A stretch of DNA of 64,000 nucleotides from a virus. Under the pieces are notes generated by a model. That model made no database searches and was not told the origin of the DNA. It saw only the letters and a program-made list of their open reading frames with translations. Made by a program: the position numbers and the translations under genes. The DNA lies in IMG/VR virus record IMGVR_UViG_3300008448_000024, positions 1 through 64,000 of that record; one strand, written 5' to 3'. Positions 6,999 through 31,243 of this stretch are shown one piece after another. The number at the start of each line of letters is the position of its first letter. Positions within the stretch are counted from its first letter, which is position 1.

Positions 6999-7098
6999 GG
7001 TCGGGTGGCGGAATTGGTAGACGCACACAAGTGGGAGGTTCGATTCCTGTCTCTGGTGTCACTTGCGTACATTACAGGTTCGAATCCTGTCCTGACTA
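6999..7098 (+). ncRNA. tRNA-like element E3
   Basis: The acceptor GGTCGGG/CCTGACT pairs with two wobbles. A Leu-type D arm (GGCGGAATTGGTAGACGC) and a T arm (ACAGG, TTCGAAT, CCTGT) frame the element. The middle is closed by CAAGTG/CACTTG and contains a second T-arm-like segment (GGAGG, TTCGATT, CC), as if a fragment of another tRNA had been inserted. No normal anticodon arm is visible. Confidence 0.6.
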
Positions 7099-7125
7099 CA
7101 AAAAATATAAATGGCGATTTATTTG

Positions 7126-7274
7126 AATGGTAAATGAAGTAGGAAACCAAACGTAATAGTTTGCTGCAGACCCCAAATTTTTTAAAGCGCAAAAGGTAGC
7201 AGTTACTCCCGAATGAAGCCCTTAGGGCTGAGGAATACGCGGGTTTTACGGAAACGCATCGGGCATTTACCATT
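7126..7274 (+). ncRNA. Structured RNA between E3 and E4
   Basis: An 11-bp perfect terminal helix (AATGGTAAATG/CATTTACCATT) closes a 149-nt segment with internal hairpins CAAAC/GTTTG and AGCCC/GGGCT, followed by a T-run. There is no plausible gene. Candidate small RNA of unknown class. Confidence 0.55.
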
Positions 7275-7280
7275 TTTTAT

Positions 7281-10667: not shown

Positions 10668-11192
10668 ATGACAAAAAGAATCGAAAACGCAATAGATATT
10701 TTTTTAGATGCTATTAATGAAGGAACACTAGCAAAGGGTACTTGTACTGCTTGTGCAGTTGGTAACTTAGTTGCTCATGGTATGGGTTCTAAGGTTGTCA
10801 AAGAAAACTTCCTTACCACGCTCCGTCACTATGCGACAAAGCCAAATGTGCCCAATTATGATTGGGCTTATTTATTCCGTACAGATAGCTACGGTCAACA
10901 AAGTGTAAAACCAGGGCTACATAAAGCATTAGCAGAGGATCGGTATAAAAACCTACGGGATGCTATAGAAAAAATCGATTTCACTATCGATGAACTTCGT
11001 CAAATTGAATACGTATTTGAAACAAATACTGAGCTCACATATGATGTTTATAAACACCGCACAAAAGAAGAAGTAAGAGCAGATCAAATTAAAGGACTTG
11101 AAGCAGTTGTTAAGTTGATGTTGACATTCGATGAACAAGTTGACGATGTTAAAGAAGTGTTCACAACTAAGGCGGAAGCGATTCCATGTTAA
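10668..11192 (+). CDS. Conserved phage-type hypothetical protein, 174 aa
   Basis: An N-terminal CTACAVGNLVAHGMG segment around residues 27-42 looks like a conserved Cys-containing helix start, followed by a mostly helical body. I have the impression of a family common in Bacteroidetes phages, but cannot name a function. Its stop overlaps the start of the next small gene. Confidence 0.65.
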   Translation: MTKRIENAIDIFLDAINEGTLAKGTCTACAVGNLVAHGMGSKVVKENFLTTLRHYATKPNVPNYDWAYLFRTDSYGQQSVKPGLHKALAEDRYKNLRDAIEKIDFTIDELRQIEYVFETNTELTYDVYKHRTKEEVRADQIKGLEAVVKLMLTFDEQVDDVKEVFTTKAEAIPC

Positions 11193-11377
11193 TTAATATG
11201 ATAACAAGTAGTTCGGAATTACGTAAAGTATTTGTAATCAAGAAACGGTCAGCAAAGTCGCTTAGGTTTTATAAGCGTATGAAAATTAGACGTAAAAGAT
11301 CTTTGATAAGAAAGGTTATGCATCATGCGAATATACACAAGATTCTTCATTCGTACTGTTTAAACGATCTCAGTTAA
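11186..11377 (+). CDS. Very basic small protein, 63 aa
   Basis: Rich in Lys and Arg (KKRSAKSLRFYKRMKIRRKR). It overlaps the end of the previous gene by 7 nt (ATGTTAA), which suggests translational coupling; a start at 11198 is equally possible. It may bind nucleic acid, judged only from charge. Confidence 0.5.
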   Translation: MLINMITSSSELRKVFVIKKRSAKSLRFYKRMKIRRKRSLIRKVMHHANIHKILHSYCLNDLS

Positions 11378-11400
11378 AATCTTGGTTTGATGTTTACCAT

Positions 11401-11504
11401 TGTGGACTATAAAGGGTTCGTATCTTTTATCACATCTATCGTAAGACTGATTTATCAGGGTTCGTATCTAGGTGTGATTTAATCGTAAGACTTTATAGTC
11501 CACA
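11401..11504 (+). ncRNA. Symmetric structured RNA with duplicated internal-loop motif
   Basis: A 14-bp terminal helix (TGTGGACTATAAAG, 11401-11414, with 11491-11504) and a second 9-bp helix (11429-11437 with 11470-11478) lead to a hairpin CTGAT/ATCAG. Between the helices the same internal loop occurs twice: GGTTCGTATC (11415, 11459) opposite ATCGTAAGA (11482, 11438), once in each orientation. This regularity is not expected by chance. No known RNA class recognised. Confidence 0.7.
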
Positions 11505-11511
11505 TAAAAAG

Positions 11512-11633
11512 TTGTAGTGATAAATTGTTGTCAGCGCAAGACTGAGTGGGGGCTAACCTGTAAAAAAGGATTAATTCAAACAGTAATGAAAGCCCTGACA
11601 TAGGCGTGTAAGTCTATTGGTTTATTACTACAA
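11512..11633 (+). ncRNA. Structured RNA, 122 nt
   Basis: The ends pair over 13 bp (TTGTAGTGATAAA with TTTATTACTACAA, one wobble). Inside are TGTCAG/CTGACA and GGGCT/AGCCC helices. The segment AGCGCAAGACTGA is identical to part of tRNA-Phe at 21334, so it may be tRNA-derived. Confidence 0.55.
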
Positions 11634-11635
11634 AT

Positions 11636-11734
11636 TGTGTTGTTCCTTTGAGAAAGGAATGCGAATGATAAGAGGCTATCCGTTACAGAAATGTAAGAAG
11701 ACAACCTACTCAACACAGAGGACTTCTCATCCTC
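11636..11734 (+). ncRNA. Repeated structured RNA, copy 1
   Basis: TGTGTTG/CAACACA ends enclose a TTCCTTT/AAAGGAA hairpin. A terminal hairpin GAGGA/TCCTC with loop CTTCTCA follows. The same arrangement with the same 3' hairpin occurs at 26408-26497. In this copy element E7 follows at once. Confidence 0.6.
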
Positions 11735-11738
11735 AAAT

Positions 11739-11822
11739 AGTCAGGTGGCGCAATTGGTAGACGGTTGGTGCTGGGCAGTAGGCTCCTCCAAAGGTATATA
11801 GGTTCGAATCCTGTCCTGACTA
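11739..11822 (+). ncRNA. tRNA-like element E7
   Basis: AGTCAGG/CCTGACT acceptor, Leu-type D arm (GGCGCAATTGGTAGACG) and T arm ATAGG/CCTGT. At 84 nt it has class II tRNA length, but the middle only offers TTGG/CCAA with a 19-nt loop, so no standard anticodon arm. The 11838 gene starts 16 nt further on. Confidence 0.6.
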
Positions 11823-11837
11823 CTAAAAATTAAAAAA

Positions 11838-11975
11838 ATGAAAAGAATAAAAACACTAATTCACGATTTTATGTCTGATCCTGAATATTATATTGTTCTA
11901 TATTTATCAGGAGGTTTTATATTAACAATTGTGAGTATGTTTTTATTTTCTCTAATAAAATATATTTTTAACTAA
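11838..11975 (+). CDS. Small membrane protein, 45 aa
   Basis: A single hydrophobic helix (YIVLYLSGGFILTIVSMFLF) follows a short basic N-terminus (MKRIKTLIHDF). It starts from the leader directly behind element E7. A single-pass phage membrane peptide of unknown role. Confidence 0.55.
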   Translation: MKRIKTLIHDFMSDPEYYIVLYLSGGFILTIVSMFLFSLIKYIFN

Positions 11976-14681: not shown

Positions 14682-15488
14682 ATGAAAAAATCTGATTTAA
14701 AATCTGGAATGTTAATTAAGACTGGTGCAGGCAGTTGGGGAATTGTAATGTTAGGAACACCTCAAGGTGATTCAATTGTATGTGGTCGCGATGCTGAGGG
14801 TGTCGAGTATACATGGTTCCCCATGAAGTACTTGAGTGATGATCTAACTGAAGCGATTGAAGAAACTAGCTACCGAGTTGATGAAATATACTCGTATTCT
14901 TCAAACCGAGATGCTTGTTCATCCTCTATAAGCGATAGGAATCTATTATGGAGCCGGAGCCAAAAGCATCTATACCTAAACCCGGAGTACACAGCAGAAT
15001 TAAAAGAATCTGAAAGAAAGATCAAGATCGGTTGCCAAACAATGACATACGAAAAATTAAAAGAGTTGTACGATTTAATCAATTTACCTAAATCTAAGCG
15101 TTCACCGGAGCGTGAGGCGTTTGTAGTAAATACGCCTAACAAGGATATGTATGTGTTTATGATTGAATATGCGAACAAAAGGGATGTACCTGTATTCAGC
15201 GATACATTTGATGAACGTAATTCGGATAGTAAGTATATGAAATTTCCTATAGTTAAATTTGACGGCCGTGAAGTATGCGCTTCAAAAAGTGTTGGTTCCA
15301 ACTCGGTTATTAGTATAGACGCATTTATTGAATTCTGCGACAAATATAAGAACTTGATACCTCCAACTATTCAGTTAACCGATGACTACGAAGGCGTAGT
15401 TAACTACGAAAAAGAGGTAGTAGAGGCAGCTTCAAGCGAATATAGCTTTGATCTAGTTAAAAAACTTTACAAACTAACAATTCAATAG
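14682..15488 (+). CDS. Two-module protein with GCQT domain, 268 aa
   Basis: Residues 1-95 form a barrel-like start (GMLIKTGAGSWGIVMLG). Residues 101-140 are the GCQT module (EYTAELKE...KIKIGCQTMTYEKLKELY). Residues 145-235 are a second domain (VVNTPNKDMYVFMIEYANKR...FPIVKFDGREV...SIDAFIEFCDKY) also found in the 15883 gene, there in the opposite order. The modular shuffling is clear; the function is not. Confidence 0.7.
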   Translation: MKKSDLKSGMLIKTGAGSWGIVMLGTPQGDSIVCGRDAEGVEYTWFPMKYLSDDLTEAIEETSYRVDEIYSYSSNRDACSSSISDRNLLWSRSQKHLYLNPEYTAELKESERKIKIGCQTMTYEKLKELYDLINLPKSKRSPEREAFVVNTPNKDMYVFMIEYANKRDVPVFSDTFDERNSDSKYMKFPIVKFDGREVCASKSVGSNSVISIDAFIEFCDKYKNLIPPTIQLTDDYEGVVNYEKEVVEAASSEYSFDLVKKLYKLTIQ

Positions 15489-18680: not shown

Positions 18681-18796
18681 CTAAAATTGTGAGTGAAATA
18701 TATAGAACTCTCGTTATGTGATGTAAGGTTCTTATCGGTCACATACACTAAAGGTAAGTGCGGCACAATCACGGCCAAAAAAATAATAGTGGTGTT

Positions 18797-18977
18797 AGTC
18801 AGGTGGCGGAATGTTAACAACCCCGTTCTAGTTGTAAAAATAATGTGGTTAGAATCCACTACGGGGTTAATGTTAACTTGGTAGACGCTACAATTACTGG
18901 GATAAAGGAGATGATGATTAACGAATTCCCTTTTATGATTTCACATTATCTTACAGGTTCGAACCCTGTCCTGACTA
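18797..18977 (+). ncRNA. tRNA-like element E9 with nested minihelix in the D-loop
   Basis: The outer frame is the usual AGTCAGG/CCTGACT with T arm ACAGG/CCTGT. The D arm is split as GGCGGAAT ... TTGGTAGACGC by a 65-nt insertion (18813-18877) bounded by GTTAAC at both ends. Inside is a tRNA-minihelix-like hairpin: ACCCCGT/ACGGGGT stacked on GTGG TTAGAAT CCAC, the latter shaped like a T arm. The same insertion start occurs in truncated E2. Confidence 0.6.
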
Positions 18978-19118
18978 CGCAGAAATCCAACACAACGACG
19001 TGGTAGCCCATGCTCTTAGGAGATAGGGGAGAGTAACCGTGAAGTGATAGTAGCGGAGCATATCCTAAACAAGTATTAGGAACGTGCGATGGTTGACAGC
19101 TTGGAAAGACAGGCAAAC
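18978..19118 (+). ncRNA. Structured RNA between E9 and E10
   Basis: Helices ATGCTC/GAGCAT and TCCTAA/TTAGGA are clear, with CTCT/AGAG inside the first. No gene fits. It may be part of the E10 transcript. Confidence 0.45.
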
Positions 19119-28696: not shown

Positions 28697-29624
28697 CATT
28701 GTTAATTATATCAAATTAAGTTCTTTGAAAATATTGTTATCCATTCGAACATCTTCTTGATGGCTTCGGTTTAATTGAAGAAGTTCGATAAATAACATTC
28801 GGCGGCATATAGTCGTTAAATAAACCACGAAAGTGGTATAAAGTGAGACGCTTGACTGAAGCGTTTTGCGGCATCTGTAAAGATGCTCGAGTATGCAAGT
28901 AGGGTATTACGAATCCTTCAGTACTGAGGGTAACACTGTAGGGAAAGTGGATTTGTAATTGGGCGATGTGGGTCGTCCGATTGAGGAGGGAACTCCAATA
29001 AGAATAACCTATAGATTGTATGCAAAGGGCGTAGCTCATCCAGTTACGTGATTGCGTTAATCAATGTGAGAGGTATCTTAAAACCGAAAGGTATATGTTC
29101 GTACAGGTGGTGCTGTTGTTCATCTGCGATGTACTCTACCAAGAGTATGTTGCGTGAAGGAATCTTAAAACATGGAAATGGGGACATTTCAAAAGGTAGT
29201 TGAATATCTACTCTGCCAAAAGCGGAGCCGGTTCAGGGCAAGCCACTACCTTTACAATCCACAAGTCAAACTTTAATAATTTGCATTTGTAGCGAAATCT
29301 ATTAATCTAATAAATTAGAGCATAAGCGCTTGCCAGTCACGGACGAAAAATGCCTACATAGTATCTGGTCGTCAGATGCCATCTAAGGCCGCAAGCCGAA
29401 GGTGATTTTCTCGAAAAGGTCGTAATCTCGCAAGGATTAATCTGCTCGGCAGAGTAGAACGGACGGAGTAAGGAGAGAGTAGTCCAAACAAAGTGACTTA
29501 AGGGGTGATTAGTCTAACTAATCGGCATTGTCGGTATAATAGTCAAAAGCTATTGGACAAAAGAGGAAAATAATATAATCTCTTGAAAGTATCGACGTCA
29601 AGACTATAGTCTCAAGTCTTTTTT
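28697..29624 (+). ncRNA. Large structured non-coding RNA, about 900 nt
   Basis: No gene fits in this stretch. It starts after promoter-like P3 with a boxA-like GTTCTTTGAAAATATT (28720) and ends at a terminator-like AAGACT/AGTCTT hairpin with a T-run (29600-29624). Many short helices with GAAA and GCAA-type loops can be drawn. Size, position beside phage tRNAs and ornate folding recall the GOLLD and ROOL classes of phage RNAs. Its place between the cREC and Ro60 genes suggests a link to RNA metabolism. The class needs a covariance search. Confidence 0.6.
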
Positions 29625-29665
29625 AATTCAAATGGTTAACATAGGTTCGATTCCTATATGAATTA
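29625..29665 (+). ncRNA. Minimal tRNA-like remnant before the Ro60 gene
   Basis: AATTCAA/ATGAATT (6 of 7 pairs) encloses a 9-nt D remnant and a perfect T arm ATAGG TTCGATT CCTAT. There is no anticodon arm. This resembles a tRNA minihelix and may be a cleavage signal or a decayed gene. Confidence 0.5.
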
Positions 29666-29701
29666 CTTAAAACAATTCTCTAACTTTAAATTAGTAGTAA
29701 A

Positions 29702-31243
29702 ATGGCACGTTACAATGCAAAAGCAAAACCAAAAGTAACAGCAGTTACAAACCACCAAGGTGGTGTAGGGTACAAGTATGACCCTAAACATGAATTAGTA
29801 GCAATTCTAGCTACAGGATTAGACAACAAGTATTACGAAAAAGCAGGAGAGCGTGAACAACGTTTATCTAATGTAATCGCAGAGGTTGCAAAGAAAGATA
29901 AATTGTTCGCAGCAAAAGCTCTTATTTATGCTCGTACTGTGATGGGACAAAGAACAGTTACTCACTTCGGTGCAGTAGAGTTAGCAAAAGTTCTATCAGG
30001 CGACTCTTTAGGTGCTAAGTTCTTCTCTAAGAGAGCTCGTAAGGAAAACAAGGGCGGTATCATATTTCGTTTAGACGATATGCTTGAAATCGCATCTTGT
30101 TACATAGCACGTAATCCAGGAAAGCAACTTTCAAACGCTATCAAAAAGGGTTTCAAAGCAGCTTTAGAAAATGCTGATGAGTATGAATTAGCTAAGTACC
30201 AAGCGAAGAACCGTGATCTATCTTTAGTAGACATCGTTAACCTTGTGCACCCTAAGCCATCTGAAAAGATGAAGCCGGTGTTTGCAAAGTTAATGAAGGG
30301 CGAATTAAAGCAATTCAATACTGTTGAAGATAAGAACACTAAGGCTGGTCAAGAAGTTGCAGCTAAGGTTAAGTCAGGTACTATTACAGCTGAACAAGCA
30401 AAAGTTCAATTAGATCAAGCTAAGGAAGAAAACTATGCTGAATTAATTGCAACACGTAAGATTGGATATTTAGCGTTACTTCGTAACCTAAGAAACATCT
30501 TAAACACTGGAGCTAAGTCAGAAATTGTTAAAGGCGCTTGTGAACTCTTAACTGACAGCAAGCTAATTAAGCAATCGCTTGTGTTTCCGCACCAAATCGA
30601 TTTAGCATTAGAAATAATGTTAGATGAATTCGGAGCAAGTAAAGCAAGACCTTTCATGGAAGCTCTGAATAAGGCATACGAATTATCTATTCCAAACCTT
30701 ACAGAACTATTCACATCAGGTAAAACTGCAGTAGTATTTGATAGCTCAGGTTCAATGGACACTCCAATCAGACTTGTGAGCAATAAGAGAGGTTCAGAAA
30801 GAGCAATCGATAAGGCTGCTCTGATCGCAGCAACTCTCGCAAAAGGTATCAATGCAGATGTATACCACTTTGCTGACTCTTGCAGAATGATTAAGTTCAA
30901 TCCGCTTGATAGTGTTAACTCGCTTAAGCGTTTATTCACATCAGCTCAAGGTTCAGTAGGTTACGGCACAGCTTTCAACAGTATTATGCCAACTTTAGGA
31001 GGTAAGTATGATCGTGTATTCGTAATCAGTGATATGCAAGGACGTGATAGATTAGAACGTTCATCTTACAAAGATGCTCACGTATATTGTGTAGACATCA
31101 CTGGATACGGAACTACAATGTTCAAGCCAGGAGAAAAGATCTATCAAATCCATGGCTACTCAGCGGACATCTACGAACTGATCAAGAAGGTTGAAATTGA
31201 TCCAAAAGTGTTAATTAAGGCAATCGAGGCGATTGAAATCTAA
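29702..31243 (+). CDS. rsr: Ro60/TROVE-domain RNA-binding protein, 513 aa
   Basis: Residues 20-320 form the HEAT-like TROVE ring (NHQGGVGYKYDPKHELVAIL, YARTVMGQRTVTHFGAVEL). Residues 340-510 are a von Willebrand A domain with a MIDAS motif (VVFDSSGSMDTP) and a late FVISDMQGRD. Length and layout match bacterial Ro (Rsr). Ro proteins bind misfolded RNAs in the ring and Y RNAs on the outside; in bacteria they act with nucleases and often lie beside RNA-repair genes. Structured RNAs flank this gene on both sides. No obvious truncation. Confidence 0.9.
   Translation: MARYNAKAKPKVTAVTNHQGGVGYKYDPKHELVAILATGLDNKYYEKAGEREQRLSNVIAEVAKKDKLFAAKALIYARTVMGQRTVTHFGAVELAKVLSGDSLGAKFFSKRARKENKGGIIFRLDDMLEIASCYIARNPGKQLSNAIKKGFKAALENADEYELAKYQAKNRDLSLVDIVNLVHPKPSEKMKPVFAKLMKGELKQFNTVEDKNTKAGQEVAAKVKSGTITAEQAKVQLDQAKEENYAELIATRKIGYLALLRNLRNILNTGAKSEIVKGACELLTDSKLIKQSLVFPHQIDLALEIMLDEFGASKARPFMEALNKAYELSIPNLTELFTSGKTAVVFDSSGSMDTPIRLVSNKRGSERAIDKAALIAATLAKGINADVYHFADSCRMIKFNPLDSVNSLKRLFTSAQGSVGYGTAFNSIMPTLGGKYDRVFVISDMQGRDRLERSSYKDAHVYCVDITGYGTTMFKPGEKIYQIHGYSADIYELIKKVEIDPKVLIKAIEAIEI

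Follow-up and report, generated by a model that had tools for sequence, protein, structure and literature searches.

Why would a single hairpin in a phage genome carry the same large internal loop twice, in opposite orientations? The question is raised by 104 bases at 11401-11504 of the window, i.e., the whole 64,000-nt stretch of viral DNA analysed here. The window belongs to a 94 kb record, and a near-identical 180-kb record exists; their source is a freshwater-type bacterial virus, T4-like and tRNA-rich, whose baseplate protein has 45% identity to Flavobacterium phage relatives. The element, which we call the twin loop, is known from this one phage species through these two records, which are too alike to inform on polymorphism. 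One difference between them is a segment of ~81 bp at 15126-15206 of the window record, missing from the otherwise near-identical second record.

The twin loop sits among small genes, all in the same orientation, and structured RNA modules. It starts 23 nt past the stop codon of one ORF and ends 334 nt ahead of the start of the next, and the space between it and that next ORF is occupied by two RNA domains and a tRNA-like element. The region is fast-changing, and its genes were not found in the related records examined.

Sequence, symmetry and fold

The original prediction proposed one internal loop used twice, in opposite orientation, on either side of a 9-bp helix and within a 14-bp outer helix. 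Its coordinates and letters are exact, both helices are where it placed them, and the outer one is a perfect inverted repeat. The parts are as follows:

11401-11504, + strand: twin-loop RNA-like hairpin, 104 bases, coordinates and letters checked exact
11401-11414, + strand: outer helix, 5' strand, 14 bp, a perfect inverted repeat with 11491-11504
11413-11425, + strand: loop strand A copy 1, AGGGTTCGTATCT, 5' side of the outer loop, identical to 11457-11469
11429-11437, + strand: connecting 9-bp helix, 5' strand, pairs with 11470-11478
11438-11448, + strand: loop strand B copy 1, ATCGTAAGACT, 5' side of the inner loop, identical to 11482-11492
11447-11458, + strand: apical hairpin CTGA-TTTA-TCAG, from the predicted fold
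11457-11469, + strand: loop strand A copy 2, AGGGTTCGTATCT, 3' side of the inner loop, identical to 11413-11425
11470-11478, + strand: connecting 9-bp helix, 3' strand, pairs with 11429-11437
11482-11492, + strand: loop strand B copy 2, ATCGTAAGACT, 3' side of the outer loop, identical to 11438-11448
11491-11504, + strand: outer helix, 3' strand, 14 bp, pairs with 11401-11414

Both loop strands were also said to be repeated exactly, which holds for GGTTCGTATC (11415-11424 and 11459-11468) and ATCGTAAGA (11438-11446 and 11482-11490), and the true repeats are longer: 13 nt for AGGGTTCGTATCT and 11 nt for ATCGTAAGACT, each present twice and both with a spacing of 44. The first copy of A lies opposite the second copy of B in the outer loop, and the first copy of B lies opposite the second copy of A in the inner loop. 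Each loop copy reads 5'-AG[GGUUCGUAUC]U / A[UCGUAAGA]CU, with 10 nt facing 8 nt, a G-C pair closing one side and a U-A pair the other, and the two copies are related by a 180-degree rotation about the connecting helix. Fourteen layers separate the loops (U-A, U-A, U.U, U.U, 9 pairs, A-U), i.e., 12 pairs, one of them G-U, plus two U-U mismatches. Because there are exactly 14 layers between the two loops, the dyad is exact; its position in the connecting helix is 11431/11432. Beyond the inner loop, the hairpin is capped by a UUUA loop on four base pairs, CUGA/UCAG. The earlier description of a module used in tandem is thus right about a sequence-specific module occurring twice and wrong about its arrangement: the copies stand head to head, not head-to-tail.

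As + strand RNA, the element is predicted to fold at -36.6 kcal/mol, compared with -19.0 +/- 3.2 for shuffled sequences (z = -5.6). Pair probabilities mostly exceed 0.98 in the outer helix (0.54 for the terminal pair) and exceed 0.95 in the connecting 9-bp helix. The - strand also folds (-29.3 kcal/mol, z = -6.0), but only on the + strand does the minimum-energy structure give both loops identical internal pairing (UUCG with CG-U-AA). The predicted + strand loops have two purine mismatches, GG/GA, adjoining the closing G-C pair, and the single wobble pair of the element is a G-U on this strand. An alternative of two hairpins with kissing loops was rejected: it reaches -12.5 kcal/mol before kissing, against -36.0 for the twin-loop fold.

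The twin loop is not a chance structure. The A..B pattern occurs 2 times in the window and 0 times in 100 shuffles. An architecture scan covering both strands of retrieved phage DNA (0.9 Mb plus 1.0 Mb), which looked for two equal repeats (at least 9 nt) at one offset with complementary spacers and flanks (helices of at least 9 bp) and set aside simple repeats and tRNA pairs, had 11401-11504 as its sole match.

Comparing the two loops with each other shows which parts are kept. The loops agree in all 18 bases and in their closing pairs, whereas the pairs outside them differ by two-sided changes (AAAG/CUUU in one, UCAG/CUGA in the other). In direct register the two spacers, TTTATCACATCT and AGGTGTGATTTA, agree at 1/12 positions, yet they are mutually complementary. 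Constant loops and differing helices are the opposite of a pattern in which loops vary and helices are kept, and they mean that the repeats cannot stem from a single duplication, be it tandem or inverted: tandem duplication would have left the spacers similar, which they are not, and inverted duplication would have made the loops complementary, which they are not. The simplest account of these letters appears to be a constrained loop sequence and a free helix sequence; two independent local copying events are another possible source of identical loops.

Relatives of the twin loop

It had been suggested that the two loop strands be sought in other genomes. They recur in the near-identical record of the same phage, and nothing else with a twin loop came to light. 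Isolate phages yielded no relative. Among viral contigs, the A..B loop pattern found none beyond the same phage, the B..A pattern gave ~30 matches with the twin fold in none, and a relaxed B..A..B pattern gave 8 others, again with the twin loop in none. The loop pattern had one match in bacterial genomes (Pelagicoccus), and this had no second copy. A covariance model found only this phage, both in 15 TROVE-related records (14 besides this phage) and in ~100 loci carrying a neighbouring RNA module. Neighbouring proteins were also used as anchors: the 174-aa and 63-aa ORFs led only to the same phage, and the loci of distant relatives of the 66-aa protein encoded downstream contain no twin loop.

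Rfam 15 has nothing for the twin loop at the gathering threshold, and with E up to 5 across 11300-11900 it returns just two things, the tRNA-like element farther downstream and a snoRNA match attributable to chance. Strand A resembles the T-arm of tRNA (GGTTCGAATC, 9/10), but the likeness was judged not meaningful because the A58 position is lost and the T-arm stem does not form. The twin loop is therefore best described as real and unusual, with a plausible mechanism and, so far, one phage.

Separately, the window contains a GOLLD RNA followed directly by a gene for a TROVE (Ro60-like) protein, at 29192-31243, and TROVE relatives are present in many phages. The tRNA-like elements of the window could conceivably serve as Y-RNA-like partners.

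What the twin loop may bind

We tentatively favour a palindromic RNA site at which a partner with two-fold symmetry would dock, most probably a protein dimer or two proteins, because such a binder would need just this: identical, sequence-specific loops set in an exact dyad. We infer that the twin loop is transcribed from the + strand, that it forms a structured RNA domain as one module within a phage RNA array, and that it meets a partner there. Its two loops would make up a pseudo-palindromic double-stranded RNA site in which each strand reads 5'-A-helix-B-3'. The partner, a homodimer or two copies of a phage- or host-encoded protein, would dock on both loops simultaneously and span the 14-layer connecting helix, much as a dimeric repressor sits on a palindromic DNA operator. 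The role of the outer 14-bp helix would be limited to presenting the site, and the outcome may be that the surrounding transcript is controlled or processed, or that the partner is held.

One candidate partner adjoins the element:

11186-11377, + strand: 63-aa Lys/Arg-rich ORF, ending 23 nt upstream of the twin loop

Its start overlaps the preceding stop codon (ATGttaA), and its product would be very basic (17 Lys/Arg, 4 His; pI 11.6, charge +14), with AlphaFold2 predicting one long basic helix. It matches no protein family, and its relatives are confined to the same phage. A codon score at noncoding level makes its coding status doubtful, so this ORF stays a candidate and no more.

Known systems resemble parts of this arrangement. 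Archaeal box C/D sRNAs have a C-D'-C'-D topology in which a symmetric protein set binds both sites. The twin loop has a comparable A-B-A-B order, the outermost A and B forming one loop and the inner B and A the other. However, its spacers pair with each other, whereas those of box C/D sRNAs serve as guides, and its strands (GGUUCGUAUC and UCGUAAGA) hold no RUGAUGA/CUGA k-turn pair, CUGA following one B copy only. HIV Rev response element IIB and other sites for arginine-rich peptides share the possible G.A and G.G pairs and a bulged U within a helix, and here too a very basic ORF is at hand; in the twin loop, however, the pairing is only predicted, the binder is only a candidate, and there is no sequence relationship. 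The pan motif carries identical conserved bulges twice on a simple helix, from which its authors infer dimeric protein binding (PMC2864571). The twin loop likewise has the same motif twice in a helical context. The pan copies, however, sit on stems of their own that are arranged in tandem and carry bulged A residues, and they precede pantothenate operons (PMC2864571), whereas the twin loop has two 10x8 loops in one helix, with an exact dyad, in a phage RNA array; no relatives with its motif came to light, and no pan genes are among the nearby ORFs scanned.

A role of RNA alone, or a structural one, would leave the same traces as a protein-dimer site. In an RNA-only module, identity of the loops would reflect one tertiary or quaternary contact that both of them make without protein, e.g., by receiving another domain of the array or by joining two copies of the RNA in a symmetric interface. 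We consider this possible but somewhat unlikely. The phage also encodes GOLLD RNA, and GOLLD, ROOL and OLE form symmetric assemblies of RNA alone (PMC12286853); moreover, the twin loop is directly followed by two more domains, and its A1-B1-A2-B2 topology would permit A-B pairing between two molecules. On the other hand, the two-hairpin alternative is far weaker, and the search for a complementary or receptor-like partner brought up nothing conspicuous: shuffled controls give antisense matches just as long as the longest ones here, so an antisense target was rejected as well. It is unlikely that the element is a passive hairpin, i.e., a stability or spacer structure in a 3' UTR that binds nothing and whose loop strands were equalised by local copying. 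Such a hairpin would suit the position 23 nt past an ORF stop in a fast-changing region and the lack of relatives, but the copying would need to have happened separately at least twice, at an identical offset.

The analogy to twin aptamers in the original prediction draws no support from the context. Tandem riboswitches, e.g., glycine aptamers, use one module twice, head-to-tail; the twin loop shares the doubling, and its two identical, sequence-constrained internal loops would suit a small-molecule site, but it is a dyad and lacks an expression platform. The next ORF begins only after 334 nt and three intervening RNA elements, so the twin loop does not occupy a gene-adjacent 5' UTR; it also matches no riboswitch family in Rfam. 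Since every contextual sign of a riboswitch is missing, we regard this reading as improbable. Nor is the element an intrinsic terminator: it is followed by TAAAAAGTTG where a terminator would have a U tract after its GC-rich stem, and a terminator scan shows no terminator-like site at or near it. We give equally little weight to a DNA-level role (replication origin, recombination site or mobile-element end) acting as an extruded single-strand hairpin. The perfect 14-bp inverted repeat and the good folding of the - strand speak for it, but the G-U pair and two loops that fold alike point to + strand RNA, and the context is not transposon-like. There is one copy in each of the two records, no target-site duplication is visible, and the flanks differ, unlike what a mobile element (MITE) would show.

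A large internal loop used with exact two-fold symmetry inside a single RNA helix is unusual, and if a dimer does read the twin loop, it would be a clean case of RNA palindrome recognition.

The surrounding RNA array

Three further elements follow the twin loop:

11512-11633, + strand: second structured domain, a 15-bp closing helix and multi-hairpin junction (z = -4.3 for 11505-11636)
11637-11734, + strand: third domain, a widespread phage RNA module that recurs in 105 viral stretches
11739-11822, + strand: tRNA-like element at the end of the array (Rfam tRNA 31.2 bits, gathering score 29)

For the second domain (11505-11640), no homologue was found in other phages. The third module also occurs in the window at 26407-26498 and has no match in Rfam. 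It consists of a constant scaffold, GUGUUGUUCCCUUGAGAAAGGAAU ... ACAACACAGAGGACUUCUCAUCCUC, around a hypervariable arm of 20-80 nt, and two of its hairpin loops are perfectly complementary (UGAGAA/UUCUCA). Its copies were gathered by exact 3' sequence, so the invariance of that hairpin is built in. Independent evidence comes from a conserved 5' half, from one exchange in P2 (C-G replaced by U-A in 2 sequences) and from further copies recovered by a model search. A tRNA-like AGTCAGG element lies within 25 nt after the third module in 40/75 distinct copies.

Other modules of the arrays in the window recur in other phages. No such recurrence was seen for the twin loop and 11505-11640, which makes the twin loop resemble a private cassette within a type of array that phages share. 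Going further, it could be an RNA counterpart of the palindromic DNA operator, read by a dimer of phage or host protein, and an exchangeable cassette that belongs to a class of phage RNA array, possibly undescribed, with constant scaffolds and tRNA-like elements; we offer this combination as a speculative reading. The modules around the twin loop may outweigh it in importance. In tRNA-rich phages it flags an array of structured RNAs that await explanation, the widespread module included.

The tRNA-like elements form a family of ~11 members with constant ends, AGTCAGGTGGCGGAATTGGTAGACG ... CAGGTTCGAATCCTGTCCTGACTAC, in which unrelated inserts of ~25-130 nt replace the anticodon arm. They lie at the following window positions, many just upstream of small ORFs:

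~762, 6999, 7280, 7653, 7995, 11739, 18601, 18796-18978, 19118, 19561 and 26575: tRNA-like elements

Similar tRNA-like ends were found in 89 of the fetched array loci. Four other noncoding modules (7098-7280, 26195-26340, 26700-26920 and 27185-27357) lie between tRNA or tRNA-like genes; they have no match in Rfam and show ~69-88% identity to other phage contigs. Lastly, a AAAACGAAAnTTTTT...TATATTTAC repeat occurs in five copies (window 17580, 21067, 23692, 24837 and 28647), which are possibly phage promoters.
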